From positions 1 through 64,000 of the forward strand of contig CAMARK010000009.1 of NCBI GenBank assembly GCA_945860205.1: DNA of 64,000 nt. The letters are read 5' to 3'. This DNA is from Reyranella massiliensis 521. Lineage in GTDB: Bacteria; Pseudomonadota; Alphaproteobacteria; Reyranellales; Reyranellaceae. The translations under genes were made by a program, and so were the position numbers. The notes under the pieces were generated by a model. The model had not been told where the DNA came from. It saw only the letters and a program-made list of their open reading frames with translations, and made no database searches. Every line of letters begins with the position of its first letter. Position 1 is the stretch's first letter. Shown here one piece after another: positions 49,897 to 59,179 of this stretch.

Positions 49897-50197
49897 GAGC
49901 GAACCACGCCTCGAAGAGTGACCGCGCCGCTTGTACGCGCGCGGTCGTTGGCGCGCAACGCGACGCCGTCGAGCACCCCGTTCAACTCGTTCGATGACAT
50001 GCGATTCGCTCGTTCCGATGACCTGTGGCGCGATTGCATCATCTAGTACCATCAACACCATGGTCTACAAAATGTAGTTGCGCACACAAGATTTTGTAAT
50101 TTAGTATCCTCCTGTGCCTATTAGTGCGTGCTCGATTCCAATTCGAGCACACCCCGCAAGGGAACAAATGACGGGAACGGGGCACGGGGGATCGTCG
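49897..50197. other. Divergent intergenic region between NDUFA12-like gene and nrdJ
   Basis: This 301-bp region must hold the promoters of two divergent operons. It contains a hairpin with 8-bp arms (GACCGCGC 49920-49927, GCGCGGTC 49939-49946) near the NDUFA12-like start, and the nrdJ control elements listed separately (50066-50107). It is AT-rich from about 50040 to 50110. I see no gene in it. Confidence 0.6.
50066..50107 (+). promoter_or_regulatory. Candidate nrdJ promoter with flanking inverted repeat
   Basis: TTGCGC (50078-50083) and TAGTAT (50102-50107) are 18 bp apart and fit a sigma-70-like promoter. Overlapping it, TACAAAAT (50066-50073) and ATTTTGTA (50091-50098) form a perfect 8-bp inverted repeat, a plausible regulator site. 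The stretch 50084-50099 partly resembles an NrdR box (about 11 of 16 positions), too weak to assert. Confidence 0.4.
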
Positions 50198-53893
<3,696 letters not shown>

Positions 53894-53971
53894 CGCGTGT
53901 GACGAAGCGTACCCCGCGTAAGGCGAGGAACCCGCGGTTGGGAACCTCAAAGCTAACCATAGGAGACAGTT

Positions 53972-54028
53972 ATGGCTGCTAAGAAAAAGGCTGCTAAGAA
54001 GAAGGCTGCTAAGAAGAAGAAGCAGTAG
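53972..54028 (+). CDS. 18-residue Lys/Ala-rich peptide (AAKKK repeat)
   Basis: ATG at 53972 follows AGGAGACAGTT, an excellent ribosome binding site. It encodes MAAKKKAAKKKAAKKKKQ, three and a bit copies of the unit AAKKK resembling histone H1-type tails. The peptide would be strongly basic and could bind DNA or RNA. It lies between nrdJ and a structured 3' region, probably on the same transcript. The strong ribosome site and clean repeat argue that it is translated; function unknown. Alternatively it is a leader-type peptide whose translation, not product, matters. Confidence 0.65.
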   Translation: MAAKKKAAKKKAAKKKKQ

Positions 54029-54032
54029 ACAG

Positions 54033-54085
54033 GAAAGGGCGTAGGCCAAAGTTTACTTTGGCCCCTCTAACCAAACGCCTTTCGG
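54033..54085 (+). ncRNA. Structured 3' region after the Lys/Ala peptide gene
   Basis: GGCCAAAG (54044-54051) and CTTTGGCC (54056-54063) form a perfect 8-bp stem with loop TTTA. Around it, GAAAGGGCGT and ACGCCTTTC can pair with one bulge. This compact double-layer hairpin has no T-run, so it is not an intrinsic terminator; it may protect the mRNA end or be part of a processed small RNA. Confidence 0.4.
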
Positions 54086-54197
54086 CTTCCGCGTGGGCGC
54101 CCTCACGGGCCCCACCGGAAGCCACCTTCAGAAGACGAGCATCAATTGCCAACGCGACATCTCCGCTTGCGGGGATGGAAAGGCGAAACTGAATAGC

Positions 54198-54231
54198 GTC
54201 CGGCGACCTCGGTCTGCCGGACTCTTTTTTT
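54198..54231 (+). terminator. Rho-independent terminator of the nrdJ transcript
   Basis: GTCCGGC and GCCGGAC (54198-54222) form the stem, with GACC/GGTC extending pairing inside, followed by CTCTTTTTTT. It lies 170 bp after the peptide gene stop, leaving room for an untranslated or small-RNA segment between the two. Confidence 0.85.
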
Positions 54232-54249
54232 GTCCGCCTTGAAGGCGGC

Positions 54250-54294
54250 CATATTCCCCTCTACATAGCGGAATATGGATACTGACCAGTCAGT
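54250..54294. promoter_or_regulatory. Overlapping palindromes at the tetR start: probable operator
   Basis: CATATTCC (54250-54257) and GGAATATG (54270-54277, including the start codon) form an 8-bp inverted repeat. ACTGACCAGTCAGT (54281-54294) is a near-perfect palindrome of the kind bound by TetR-type efflux regulators, placed in the first codons. Both sites would let the regulator repress its own operon. Confidence 0.6.
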
Positions 54295-54922
54295 CAATAC
54301 CAACGAGACGACGCTCCGGACCCGCCGGCCGGAGGATCGCGCGCCCGAAATCGCCCGGGCAGCGCTGGAACTGTTCGTTACCCGGGGCTTTGCCGCCACC
54401 AAGCTCGAGGATGTGGCCAAGGCGGCGTCGGTCAGCAAAGGCCTCCCCTACCTTTACTTCAAGAACAAGGAAGAGCTCTTCAAAGCGGTGATCACCGAGG
54501 CGATCGGCGGCCCGCTCGCCGAAGCTACCGATATGATCGGCCGCTTCGACGGAACGAGCGAGGACTTGTTGCGTGAACTCGTCGCCGGCTTCCGCGCCTT
54601 CGAGGAAAGTCCCGCCGGTGGCGTCATCAAACTGATCCTGGCCGAGGCCGGCAACTTCCCCGACGTCGCACGCTTCTTCTGCACGCACTTCGACCTCCGG
54701 GGCCGCGAACTCTTCGCCCATGCGCTCCGACGCGGCGTGCAACGCAAGGAGTTCGGGCCGATCGCAGATATCGAGACCACCGCGGTCATCCTCGTGCAGC
54801 CGCTCGCCATGTTCTCCGTCTGGAAACGCTCGCTCGCGCCGTTCGACACGACCAACCGGCTGAGCAGCGACCAGTTCTACGCAGCCTACCTCGACTTCAT
54901 TTTCAAAGGGCTTCGGCCATGA
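54275..54922 (+). CDS. TetR-family repressor of the RND efflux operon
   Basis: The 215-residue protein has an N-terminal helix-turn-helix: RAPEIARAALELFVTRGFAA, then TKLEDVAKAASVSKGLPYLY and FKNKEELFKAVI. The C-terminal half is helical (FRAFEESPAGGVIKLILAEA and VARFFCTHFDLRGRELFAHA), resembling the AcrR/TetR_C_33-like dimer domain. It is first in the operon with the adaptor and pump genes; its stop overlaps the adaptor start (ATGA). It probably represses the pump until a ligand binds. Ligand unknown. Confidence 0.93.
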   Translation: MDTDQSVNTNETTLRTRRPEDRAPEIARAALELFVTRGFAATKLEDVAKAASVSKGLPYLYFKNKEELFKAVITEAIGGPLAEATDMIGRFDGTSEDLLRELVAGFRAFEESPAGGVIKLILAEAGNFPDVARFFCTHFDLRGRELFAHALRRGVQRKEFGPIADIETTAVILVQPLAMFSVWKRSLAPFDTTNRLSSDQFYAAYLDFIFKGLRP

Positions 54923-56055
54923 CAACTCGCCGCACCATCATTATCGTCGCCGCCGTCGCGACCGTCGCCCTGGCGGCCGGCGGCATTGCCTGGAAGAGCG
55001 GCCGCGGCGTGTCGGCCCAAGTCGCAGGAGCCACTCAAACCGGCAAGCCGGCCGGGCAAGTCATTGAGCTGATCCCGGTCGAGCTTCATACGATCAGCCC
55101 GCGGGGCCTCGTCGATACCGTGCGTTTCACCGGCACGACGCAGCCGGTCGACCAGACGATCGTGAAGGCTCGCGTCCCCGGCCGCCTCGCCGAAGTCCTG
55201 GTCCGCGAAGGCGACAAGGTGACCAAGGGGCAGGTGCTGGCCCGTTTTGAAGAGGCCGAGCTTCAGTCCAAGGTCAACGAGCGCCGCTCGGCCCTCGATG
55301 CCGCCCGCGCCGACGCCCGCTGGACCTCGCGCGACCGCTCGGACAAGGAGTCGCTCGCCTCGCGCAACATCGTCTCGCAGTCCGCCGCCGATCTGGCGCG
55401 CGCGACGGCCGAGAACAGGTCTTCCATGGTCGCCGTCGCCGAGGCTCAGCTCGAAGTCGCCATGAGGAACCTGGGCGACGCCCAGGTGGTGGCGCCGTTC
55501 GACGGCGTAGTCGGCGAACGCCTGGCCAACCAGGGCGAGTCGCTGCCGGTCGACGGCAAGATCCTGGCGCTGCTCGACACCAGCCACGTCGAGATCGCGG
55601 CCCAGATGCCCGCAGCCGATGTCGTGCGCCTGCGCGTCGACCAGCCCGCCACCGTCACGCTCGAAGGTTTCGGTGACCGCTCCTTCAATGGACGCATCAC
55701 ACGCATCAGCCCGACGACCCAGGCAGGCTCGCGTTCGATCCCGGTCTATGTCGTGATCGTCGACCGGCACGAGGCGCTGCGTGGCGGCCTGTTTGCCATG
55801 GGCATCGTCAACGTCCAGGAAAAGAGCCATGCGCTGGCGGTGCCGGCATCGGCGATGCGCAAGGACGACCAGGGCGACTTCGTCCTTACCATCGAGAACG
55901 GCGTCCTGGTGCGCAAGCCCGTGGGCGCGGTGCGCACCTGGTCGCGCGGCGAGCTGGTCGAGGTGAAGGGCCTCGAAACGGGCATGCAGATCGTCTCCGC
56001 TCCCCTGCCCGGCCTCAAGGCGGGACAGAGGGTCAAGGTCATCGAGACCAAGTAG
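54919..56055 (+). CDS. RND efflux periplasmic adaptor (membrane fusion protein)
   Basis: The 378-residue adaptor has an N-terminal membrane anchor (IIIVAAVATVALAAGGIAW), a lipoyl half-motif (KARVPGRLAEVLVREGDKVT), a helical hairpin (EAELQSKVNERRSALDAARA), the second lipoyl half (VVAPFDGVVGERLANQGESL), and a beta-barrel domain ending GLETGMQIVSAPLPGLKAGQ. It links the inner-membrane pump to an outer-membrane channel, which is not encoded nearby, so a shared TolC-like protein is likely. It overlaps tetR by 4 bp and precedes the pump gene by 10 bp. Confidence 0.94.
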   Translation: MTTRRTIIIVAAVATVALAAGGIAWKSGRGVSAQVAGATQTGKPAGQVIELIPVELHTISPRGLVDTVRFTGTTQPVDQTIVKARVPGRLAEVLVREGDKVTKGQVLARFEEAELQSKVNERRSALDAARADARWTSRDRSDKESLASRNIVSQSAADLARATAENRSSMVAVAEAQLEVAMRNLGDAQVVAPFDGVVGERLANQGESLPVDGKILALLDTSHVEIAAQMPAADVVRLRVDQPATVTLEGFGDRSFNGRITRISPTTQAGSRSIPVYVVIVDRHEALRGGLFAMGIVNVQEKSHALAVPASAMRKDDQGDFVLTIENGVLVRKPVGAVRTWSRGELVEVKGLETGMQIVSAPLPGLKAGQRVKVIETK

Positions 56056-56065
56056 GCGCCCGGCG

Positions 56066-59000
56066 ATGAAGCTCACCCAGATCGCCGTCGACAATCCGGT
56101 CTTCGCCACCATGATGATGGTGGCGTTGCTGGTGATGGGCCTGTTCTCCTACCGCCAGCTCGGCGTCGACCAGTTCCCCAACGTCGACTTCCCGATCGTC
56201 GTGGTCACCACGGAATATCCCGGCGCTTCGCCCGAGACCGTCGAGACCGAGATCAGCCGCAAGATCGAGGAATCGGTCAACGCCATCGCCGGCCTCAAGA
56301 CGCTGACCTCGCGCTCGCTGGAAGGCCGCTCGATCGTCGTCGCCGAGTTCGATCTCTCGGTGCAGTCGTCGTACGCCCTGCAGGACGTGCGTGAGAAGGT
56401 CCAGCAGGTCCGCGCCGCCTTCCGGCCGGAGATCAAGGAGCCGCTGATCCAGCGCTTCAATCCCGACGACCAGCCGATCGTATCGATCGCCGTGCGCTCC
56501 GACATCCGCTCGGTGCGCGACCTGACGACGCTCGCCGACCAGCTCATCGTCAAGCGCCTGCAGACCGTGCGCGACGTCGGCCGCGCCACCATCGCCGGCG
56601 GCGTCAAGCGCCAGATCAACATCCAGCTCGATCCCGGCCGCATGCATTCGCTGCGGGTCGGCGTCAACGACATCATGCGGGCGATCCGCGACGAAAATCA
56701 GAACTTCCCGGCCGGCAACGTCGCCCGCGGCAACGACGACCGCATCATCGAGGTCACCGGCCGTGTCACAGAGCCCGGCAACTTCGCCGACCTGATCGTG
56801 GCTCGCCGCGGCCTCGCCCCCGTCTACCTGCGCCAGGTCGCGACCGTGGTCGACGGCCAGCAGGAGCTGGAGAGCATCGCCACCCAGAATGGCGAGCGGG
56901 CGTTGGCCATCGACGTGGTCAAGACGCAGGGGGCGAACACCATCGAGGTCGCTCGCGGCGTGCGCCATGCCGTGGCCGAGCTTCAGGCCGCCGTTCCGCC
57001 CGACGTGAAGCTCGAGATCGTGCGCGACAGCTCGCGCGGCATTCAGAATTCCGTCAGCAACGTCCAGCAGACTATGGTGGAGGGCGGCTTGCTCACCATC
57101 GCCATCGTGTTCCTGTTCCTGCATTCCTGGCGCAGCACGGTGATCACCGGCCTGGCGCTGCCCATTTCGGTGTTCGGCGCCTTCATGGTGATGGCGGCGT
57201 TCGGCTTCACGCTGAACGTGCTCACCCTGATGGCGCTCAGCCTCGCCATCGGCATCCTGATCGACGACGCCATCGTGGTGCGCGAGAACATCATGCGCCA
57301 TATCGGCTTCGGCAAGACACATCGCCAGGCTGCCATCGACGGCACCAACGAAATCGGGCTGGCAGTGCTGGCGACCACCTTCTGCATCGTAGCCGTGTTC
57401 CTGCCCGTGGCCTTCATGGGTGGCATCATCGGCCGCTTCTTCTTCCAGTTCGGCGTCATGGTCTCGGCAGCGGTGCTGATCTCGCTGTTCGTGTCCTTCA
57501 CGCTCGACCCGATGCTGTCGGCCATCTGGTACGACCCGCAGGCGCACGGCAACGGCCGCTTCGCCCGCATCGTGAACGGGGCCCAGGACCGCGCCAACGG
57601 CGTCTACAGGGCAGTTCTTGGATGGTCGCTGCACTGGCCCAAGCTCACCCTGCTGATCGCGCTCGGCACCTTCCTCGGCAGCTTCGCCCTGCCGAAATAC
57701 ATCGGCTTCGAGTTCGTGCCCCAGGCAGACCTCGGCGAGCAGGTCGTGAGCATAGAAACCCCGATCGGCTCGTCGCTCGAATATACGACGGCCAAGCTCA
57801 ACCAGGTCGACGCCGCGGTGCGGGAGTTTCCCGAGGTCGCCTACACCTACGGCACGGTCAACACCGGCTACGCCAACGGCAAGAACCAGGCGAGCCTCTA
57901 TCTCCGCCTGAAACCCATCAAGGAGCGCAAGCGCTCGCCCGAGCAGCTCGCCCAGCCGATCCGCGAACGGCTGGCCGGCATTCCCGGCGTCCTGGTGTCG
58001 ATCAACATTCCCGGCGGGCCTGGCGGCGGCGTGCAGAAGCAGCTCCAGCTCTCGCTGCAGGGGCCCGACACCGCCGTCCTCGACACGCTGTCGCAGGAAG
58101 TCATGCGCCGCGCCGCGGCCATTCCCGGCATGGTCGATCTCGACCGCAACCTGAAGGGCGCCAAGCCGGTCTTGTCGGTGCGGCTCCGCCGCGACGCCGC
58201 CTCCGATCTTGGCCTCGGCTCCGCCCAGGTCGCGCAGTCGCTGCGGCCGCTGTTCGCCGGCGACGAGACCAGCCTGTGGCGGGCGCCGGACGGCGAGAAC
58301 TACCTCGTCATGGTTCGCCTGCCGGTCGACGAGCGCACCGGCGTGGCCGATTTGCAGCGCATCTGGTTCACGGCCGGCATCGAGCCGAACGGCCTGCCGC
58401 GCATGGTGCACATCGCCCAGATCGCCGACATCATCGACGACGTCGGCGCCTCGCAGATCAATCGCCGTGACCTCAACCGCGAGGTCCAGATCACTGCCAA
58501 CGTCTCGGGACGGTCCTCGGGCGAGGTCAGCAGCGACCTGCAGAAAATCCTGGCCGAGACCAAGCTGCCGCCCGGTTACCGCTTCGTCTTCGGCGGCTCG
58601 ACCAAGGACATGGCCGAAAGCGCGGCCTATGCCGGCCAGGCGTTGCTGCTCGCGGTCATCCTGATCTACCTGATCTTGGCCTCGCAGTTCGGCAGCTTCC
58701 TGCAGCCCGTGGCCATCATGATGTCGCTGCCGATGTCGCTGATCGGCGTTTTCCTGGGACTGCTGATCGCCGGCACGACGCTCAACATCTTCAGCGCGAT
58801 CGGCTTCATCATGCTGATGGGCCTGGTCACCAAGAACGCCATCCTGTTGGTCGATTTCTTCAACCAGGCGCGGGCCCGCGGCACCCCGGTCAACGAGGCC
58901 CTGCTCGAGGCGGGCACGATCCGGCTCAGGCCCATCCTGATGACCACGCTCGCCATGGTGTTCGGCATGATGCCGCTGGCGCTTGGCCTCGGCGAAGGCG

Positions 59001-59179
59001 CCAGCCAGCGCGCGCCGATGGCCCACGCGGTGATCGGCGGCCTGATCAGCTCGACCCTCCTCACCCTGGTCGTGGTGCCGGTCATGCTCATCTATATCGA
59101 GCGGGTCGGCGCCTGGACTAAAAAGCATTTCAGCCGCTCCGCCGACGACGTCGCTCGCACACACAAACCCGCCGAGTAA
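56066..59179 (+). CDS. RND family efflux permease (AcrB/MdtB type)
   Basis: The 1037-residue proton-driven pump begins MKLTQIAVDNPVFATMMMVA and has the usual twelve helices with two large periplasmic loops after TM1 and TM7. LPISVFGAFMVMAAFGFTLN, AIGILIDDAIVVRENIMRHI (with the proton-relay Asp-Asp) and the TM10-12 region LILASQFGSFLQPVAIMMSL and FIMLMGLVTKNAILLVDFFN (with the key lysine) are all present. It is the third gene of the tetR-adaptor-pump operon. Substrate range (drugs, metals, solvents) cannot be read; the HAE-1/HAE-2-like sequence suggests organic compounds. Confidence 0.96.
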   Translation: MKLTQIAVDNPVFATMMMVALLVMGLFSYRQLGVDQFPNVDFPIVVVTTEYPGASPETVETEISRKIEESVNAIAGLKTLTSRSLEGRSIVVAEFDLSVQSSYALQDVREKVQQVRAAFRPEIKEPLIQRFNPDDQPIVSIAVRSDIRSVRDLTTLADQLIVKRLQTVRDVGRATIAGGVKRQINIQLDPGRMHSLRVGVNDIMRAIRDENQNFPAGNVARGNDDRIIEVTGRVTEPGNFADLIVARRGLAPVYLRQVATVVDGQQELESIATQNGERALAIDVVKTQGANTIEVARGVRHAVAELQAAVPPDVKLEIVRDSSRGIQNSVSNVQQTMVEGGLLTIAIVFLFLHSWRSTVITGLALPISVFGAFMVMAAFGFTLNVLTLMALSLAIGILIDDAIVVRENIMRHIGFGKTHRQAAIDGTNEIGLAVLATTFCIVAVFLPVAFMGGIIGRFFFQFGVMVSAAVLISLFVSFTLDPMLSAIWYDPQAHGNGRFARIVNGAQDRANGVYRAVLGWSLHWPKLTLLIALGTFLGSFALPKYIGFEFVPQADLGEQVVSIETPIGSSLEYTTAKLNQVDAAVREFPEVAYTYGTVNTGYANGKNQASLYLRLKPIKERKRSPEQLAQPIRERLAGIPGVLVSINIPGGPGGGVQKQLQLSLQGPDTAVLDTLSQEVMRRAAAIPGMVDLDRNLKGAKPVLSVRLRRDAASDLGLGSAQVAQSLRPLFAGDETSLWRAPDGENYLVMVRLPVDERTGVADLQRIWFTAGIEPNGLPRMVHIAQIADIIDDVGASQINRRDLNREVQITANVSGRSSGEVSSDLQKILAETKLPPGYRFVFGGSTKDMAESAAYAGQALLLAVILIYLILASQFGSFLQPVAIMMSLPMSLIGVFLGLLIAGTTLNIFSAIGFIMLMGLVTKNAILLVDFFNQARARGTPVNEALLEAGTIRLRPILMTTLAMVFGMMPLALGLGEGASQRAPMAHAVIGGLISSTLLTLVVVPVMLIYIERVGAWTKKHFSRSADDVARTHKPAE

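Follow-up and report, generated by a model that had tools for sequence, protein, structure and literature searches.

Behind the ribonucleotide reductase gene nrdJ of Reyranella massiliensis 521, the sequence is best read, with moderate confidence, as an nrdJ unit that ends with a tiny cistron for a polybasic, probably nucleic-acid-binding peptide and with a structured 3' UTR. This arrangement of nrdJ, a lysine micro-gene and a folded RNA tail is an operon ending that has apparently not been described; in the literature library searched, no paper joined nrdJ, a small RNA and the alphaproteobacteria, none dealt with ribonucleotide reductase together with a UTR-derived small RNA, and among the titles and starts of abstracts retrieved none concerned this element. 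The window (the whole stretch of 64,000 nucleotides that was analyzed) belongs to a species placed by NCBI in the Reyranellaceae, and the first cistron of the unit lies at 50198-53893 on the forward strand. Pfam identifies PF02867, PF08471 and TSCPD domains in its product, and the NCBIfam model PRK07562 (score 2106.5 bits, cut-off 1737) identifies it as class II, B12-dependent NrdJ. The PRK07562 match spans residues 3-1233 of the ORF 50192-53893, so that the nrdJ start is set at about 50198. GCGTA repeats (53907-53920, forward strand) follow the nrdJ stop and likewise occur in loci of other genera and in G037, the single sampled genome of the second family of the order.

An earlier note on this DNA had described an 18-codon gene with a strong ribosome binding site 78 bp behind a class II nrdJ, and its coordinates were confirmed on the sequence. 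The micro-ORF, MAAKKKAAKKKAAKKKKQ, runs from an ATG at 53972 to a TAG stop at 54026-54028 on the forward strand, starts 78 nt after the nrdJ stop (53893) and devotes 10 of its 18 codons to lysine; its identification draws on sequence, conservation, selection and codon use. The ribosome binding site AGGAG (53961-53965, forward strand) falls within the loop of what may be a short stem, CCATA/TATGG (53957-53975), enclosing the start codon; 255 of 260 alignment cells are paired in this stem, which is almost invariant and therefore shows no covariation. The sequence AGGAGACAG is also found before rplL in the same genome. On the 5' side of the ribosome binding site, the P0 hairpin (GAGG..CCC-GCGGTT-GGG..CCTC; 53925-53948, forward strand) has 350 of 364 cells paired across 52 sequences. 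A long-range pairing of the P0 loop (GGUUGGG) with CUCUAACC was considered and set aside: 348 of 355 cells are pairable, but with no two-sided changes seen this is no evidence for the pairing.

The substitution record indicates that the micro-ORF is a peptide under purifying selection. Parsimony on the nrdJ-end tree, which covered 48 of the 52 sequences whose ORF has 18 codons, counted 32 synonymous changes (four of them between TAA and TAG stops) and 7 non-synonymous changes where a synonymous share of 23% was expected; the binomial P of about 1e-14 marks a strong result and is no exact value, since what parsimony counts varies with the tree. Per-site changes at the first, second and third codon positions were 0.12, 0.41 and 1.76 in the micro-ORF and 1.59, 1.39 and 5.06 in the nrdJ end. 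The 32 synonymous changes against 7 amino-acid changes mark this as a selected peptide and no accident of composition, and they support the earlier claim that a basic peptide is encoded. Depending on the genus the ORF has 18, 20, 21 or 22 codons, with the frame and the Ala/Lys make-up kept; nearly all residues are Ala or Lys, the last is Q, S, I or M, and a single V, D, T or P occurs in some. A search with the 22-residue form (g29), used since the 18-residue form of the window is too short for the tool, drew no match at E<=1 from either Pfam or NCBIfam, the form being short and of low complexity. Clear purifying selection on an ORF of 18 residues is unusual, and ordinary gene callers likely miss such genes.

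Selection on the peptide is only part of what the ORF records. Alanine is encoded by GCT in 272 of 298 cases in 52 micro-ORFs but in only 94 of 1439 in 51 nrdJ ends, which shows constraint on the nucleotides too. A preference for GCT as a high-expression codon is unsupported by ribosomal-type genes of the window's genome (part of rplA, rplJ, rplL and part of rpoB), where it makes up 17 of 126 alanine codons. On this sequence record, the peptide alone does not explain either the GCT bias or the near-invariant region around the ribosome binding site.

The micro-ORF is held throughout the sampled order, where it accompanies nrdJ in both families and all six sampled genera, though this sample is dominated by the Reyranella genus and the other genera contribute 11 genomes. 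With one mismatch allowed, the pattern of ribosome binding site and ORF start occurs in 66 of 76 order genomes, G032 among them with a site elsewhere in the genome and none at this locus, and its reversed form in 0 of 76. Within the genus the block GGAGACAGTY-ATGGC is present in 62 of 65 genomes; the three that lack it are G074 (74% complete) and G085 (71% complete), in which the nrdJ end was likewise not found, and G032. In G032 (L038, L069) the nrdJ end joins the RNA arm M described below directly and the micro-ORF is absent, through either a deletion or an assembly fault. In the four other genera of the family the pattern matches 2 of 10 genomes, and reading of the nrdJ locus shows the ORF in 10 of 10; in the second family it stands behind nrdJ in G037. 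The regular expression used for nrdJ loci left L069, L084 and L086 unplaced and put L075 in the wrong place, so that G052 and G040 went unjudged by it, and the assignment of G063 (L075) comes from separate locus readings and not from that expression.

The spacing from nrdJ is similarly constrained. After exclusion of identical stretches and of loci too short on either side, the nrdJ stop lies 76-115 nt upstream of the micro-ORF in all 62 distinct loci, and exactly 78 nt upstream in 45. The region 53860-54240 was matched in 40 of 61 genomes (the window's own included), among them all 37 of the genus; G026 and G032 match in part, and three genomes from outside the genus have short matches to the lysine-codon part only. 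A scan of GTDB contigs for TTGGCCCCTCTAAC-N1-6-GCCWWTC returned 43 stretches, of which 42 have the micro-ORF just 5' of the motif; the remaining one, from Pelagimonas, lacks the ORF and looks like chance. The script found the nrdJ stop in 39 of the 42, the nrdJ end is visible in the sequence of L163 and L167, and in L170 the end of the contig cuts the locus. Named carriers are R. massiliensis 521, R. soli, Enhydrobacter aerosaccus, many Reyranella MAGs and less precisely named alphaproteobacteria. A Reyranella-type block of nrdJ and micro-ORF is also present in two MAGs labelled Rhizobium sp. Q54 and Asaia bogorensis (L161, L190), whose names may therefore be wrong. Across the class, the nrdJ end was matched in 190 of 288 genomes, or 186 without four of the order, with some of the matches weak. 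At the cut-offs of the script, no lysine-rich ORF was found in the stretch downstream of nrdJ in 90 alphaproteobacteria outside the order (5, 25 and 60 genomes, one of the last set offering only 45 nt). The earlier note had named a lack of conservation of the ORF or hairpins next to nrdJ in relatives, together with missing ribosome footprints, as grounds for rejecting it; the relatives searched here retain them.

The RNA behind the ORF is also conserved and structured. Only 1 of 100 shuffles of 53894-54240 folded as stably (z -4.16). All of its elements lie on the forward strand, beginning with arm U (GAAAGGGCG, 54033-54041), which is the 5' arm of an outer hairpin layer and pairs with arm M (CGCCTTTC, 54076-54083) in 404 of 416 cells. 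Between these arms lie the P2 hairpin (GGCCAAAG/CTTTGGCC, 54044-54063, arms 54044-54051 with 54056-54063), in which 5 of the 8 pairs changed on both sides with pairing preserved, and the conserved linker CCTCTAACC (54064-54072), of which the family's other genera have close variants. Arm M can pair with either U or a second arm, D (GAAAGGCG, 54178-54185), its perfect complement, which pairs with it in 400 of 408 cells. The earlier note had seen a double-layer hairpin here and then about 110 nt without a gene. Both layers are indeed present on the sequence and P2 covaries, but the outer layer competes with the M:D pairing, and the stretch behind it holds, besides the conserved GAAAGGCG, two hairpins that had been missed: the strongly conserved H2 (GGCTTCCG..CGGAAGCC, 54084-54123), with two-sided changes at 5 of 17 pairs, and the smaller H3 (54158-54177), of variable sequence. 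The intrinsic terminator at 54198-54231 was correctly called; it has a 7-bp stem, a bulged inner stem and a seven-T run, forms in the predicted fold and has 355 of 362 outer-stem cells paired, and it was unlisted by a strict consensus scanner that allows loops of 3-8. Taken together, four helices have two-sided changes that keep pairing at 10 of 34 pairs, whereas shuffles average 3.0 and slid controls reach no more than 5. Alignment A1 contains 42 of 44 sequences, 39 of them distinct, with L005 and L007 excluded and H2 misaligned in L036 and L058. An H2-like hairpin occurs in nine loci of g26, g27 and g29.

Which partner arm M takes is a matter of prediction. None of U, M and D covaries; U:M is nearly invariant, with one bulged G and no two-sided changes, and so covariation speaks neither for nor against it. 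When the RNA 3' of the stop codon was folded, the mean probability was 0.90 for M:D and 0.08 for M:U in 49 of 52 sequences; the other three were set aside, L028 since the pattern used did not locate arm D there, and L035 and L189 since they have no D. M:D exceeded M:U in 46 of the 49, the exceptions being L016, L023 and L033. With the ORF RNA included, the values were 0.59 and 0.37 (48 of 52 sequences), and the minimum-energy fold of 53894-54240 forms U:M, which means that the outcome varies with the piece chosen for folding. For the 3' piece of the window itself, the prediction pairs U with the terminator's T run, perhaps only because a completed RNA was folded.

A model of this RNA matches 67 of 76 order genomes, at a single place in each except G086, which has two on two contigs. 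Among the 288 genomes of the class it matches 3, each belonging to the genus, in a search with strict filters and few candidates scored per genome that missed the family member G095. No Rfam family reached its gathering score in the whole window, and four sub-threshold matches fall over 53880-54250, with E up to 5. A phage origin was considered and rejected: the motif pattern has 0 matches in viral contigs, and the RNA model hits one place per genome apart from G086. In G037 the hairpins differ in sequence and are not this RNA form, suggesting that the peptide is older than the RNA form seen here.

These observations fit a unit in which the micro-ORF would be transcribed together with nrdJ, a scan for sigma-70-like sites having found no such promoter between the two genes, and would be translated strongly. 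Its product would be a polycation of 18-22 residues binding DNA or RNA in the manner of the lysine/alanine tails of bacterial histone H1-like proteins, and its production would keep pace with that of the dNTP-supplying enzyme; nucleic-acid binding is the plainest guess for a polycation. Bacterial histone H1-like proteins are Lys/Ala-rich and built of Ala/Lys repeats. They share this make-up with the micro-ORF product, but the latter is far shorter, is fixed beside nrdJ and, in its short and low-complexity 22-residue form, gave no domain match. The RNA most likely folds as P2, the conserved linker and an M:D-closed junction around H2, a fold that would give a stable and possibly regulated 3' end. 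Because the unit stays with nrdJ and not with the next gene, it is taken as the last nrdJ cistron and its 3' UTR, and the fixed link between a class II reductase and a polybasic peptide suggests some connection of dNTP supply with nucleic-acid packing or RNA handling. The RNA may do no more than protect the 3' end, may be excised as a small RNA or may sense ribosomes; the fold predictions and target searches lower the likelihood of the last two roles.

The strongest competitor, though a distinctly less probable one, makes the RNA the chief product: a small RNA, 3' UTR-derived or dual-function, that would be cut from the nrdJ transcript and end at the terminator, with CCUCUAACC as its pairing seed and the ORF secondary or serving maturation. 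Its hairpins are conserved and covary, it has its own terminator, nucleotides inside the micro-ORF are constrained, and a CCUCUAAC-type motif is conserved across the genera of the family. In the nine g26, g27 and g29 loci a CCCUCUAAC-type motif lies between GAUUGGC and GCCAAUC, and predicted folds close this loop in five and place a hairpin at the P2 position in the other four. Against this, GGTTAGAGG-N3-10-ATG occurs at 31 sites in 22 genomes against 28 for the reversed control (37 genomes, 23 of the genus), a single spacer string is shared, by two genomes, and the 31 sites include the element's own antisense strand. The motif is only about half unpaired in predicted ensembles (0.49-0.56), and the second-family genome retains the ORF without this RNA. 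No conserved ribosome-binding-site target of the motif emerged from the one strict seed pattern applied to 37 genomes, a negative that is weak because only this strict pattern was used. The earlier suggestion of a small RNA from the 3' end is borne out in that the structure is conserved; processing and action in trans would be conjecture, and the strict search for conserved targets came back empty. Pairing of CCCCUCU with the nrdJ leader was also considered, and inspection of 11 leaders by eye gave nothing convincing.

Small-RNA loci of alphaproteobacteria offer a partial precedent. Cuckoo RNAs, of the ccaF1-CcsR type, carry an anti-Shine-Dalgarno CCUCC motif in their loops; the conserved motif here, CCCCUCUAAC, is without CCUCC, and the peptide, with 18-22 residues and no Pfam match at E<=1 for its 22-residue form, does not fit a DUF1127 protein, so that the locus falls outside this type on both counts. 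In Rhodobacter sphaeroides, the ccaF1-CcsR1-4 locus joins a gene for a DUF1127 small protein to 3' UTR-derived sRNAs, and ccaF1 acts in maturation of the CcsR RNAs, which lends the small-RNA explanation some support (PMC10253847, PMC8625941). The likeness is that, in an alphaproteobacterium, a small gene is followed on the transcript by RNA elements and then by a Rho-independent terminator (PMC10253847, PMC8625941). The differences are that CcaF1 has 71 residues and a DUF1127 domain, compared with 18-22 residues of nearly all Ala/Lys here, that four CcsR units stand against one RNA element, and that the Rhodobacter operon has its own RpoHI/RpoHII promoter, with no link to nrdJ mentioned in the parts of the sources consulted (PMC10253847, PMC8625941). 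Pos19 of R. sphaeroides, a 219 nt RpoE-dependent RNA with a 150-nt sORF, likewise combines a translated sORF and a regulatory RNA in a short transcript; reports of it come from R. sphaeroides strains alone, whereas the nrdJ tail is kept across an order (PMC5036791).

It is rather improbable that the tail works as a ribosome-operated switch, in which ribosomes on the lysine codons or the stop would cover U, so that M is left to D instead of U, with an effect on how stable the nrdJ 3' end is or how it is processed. Arm U begins 4 nt after the micro-ORF stop in the window, AGGGC lies 7-8 nt past the stop in 46 of 49 sequences, and M has a conserved complement in U (404 of 416 cells) as well as in D (400 of 408). 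Such a switch has little room, however, when M:D is already favored without a ribosome in the 3' piece (0.90 against 0.08), and somewhat more when the ORF RNA is included (0.59 against 0.37). Further, U, M and D are without covariation, L035 and L189 are without D, and no such arrangement of the three arms was seen in the g26, g27 and g29 loci. We give similarly low credence to a bifunctional nrdJ tail that would combine a tiny nucleic-acid-binding peptide, made in step with dNTP supply, with an RNA that acts in trans and takes its fold from translation of that peptide.

A lysine-rich leader peptide attenuating the next gene, here that of a TetR regulator, is very unlikely, even though 10 of 18 codons are for lysine and a terminator stands behind them. 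The window's TetR protein was matched downstream in 33 of 62 loci (searched over stretches of 360-1500 nt, with 3 of the 33 matches more than 1 kb away) against an nrdJ stop upstream in 62 of 62; the downstream neighbor is not constant, which disfavors attenuation, and the same comparison bears out the earlier claim that the peptide gene is tied to nrdJ. The three next genes, for the TetR regulator, an HlyD-type adaptor and an AcrB-type RND pump (a cassette at 54275-59179), are not lysine genes. The terminator stem overlaps none of U, M and D, and no antiterminator overlapping that stem was found; one predicted fold pairs U with the terminator T run. Least credible of all is a chance ORF or decaying remnant of an H1-like gene: low-complexity repeats may easily arise and shrink and longer AAKK-rich ORFs exist elsewhere in some genomes, but selection contradicts it and the spacing and ribosome binding site are constant in the genus.

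Several observations concern neighboring sequence. In G061 (L081) a longer AAKK-rich ORF, open to the end of the available stretch, lies directly behind the micro-ORF, again after GCGTA repeats and AGGAG. Three Reyranella genomes (loci L045, L060 and L062) have an H1-like ORF of 44-45 codons (MAAKKK...RKRR) before the same downstream gene. Upstream of nrdJ, at 50034-50097 of the window, TTGCATCATCTAGTA, CTACAAAATGTAG (50065-50077) and ACAAGATTTTGT (50086-50097) are near-invariant in the 11 leaders inspected, and the last two resemble what we take to be a pair of NrdR-type boxes.
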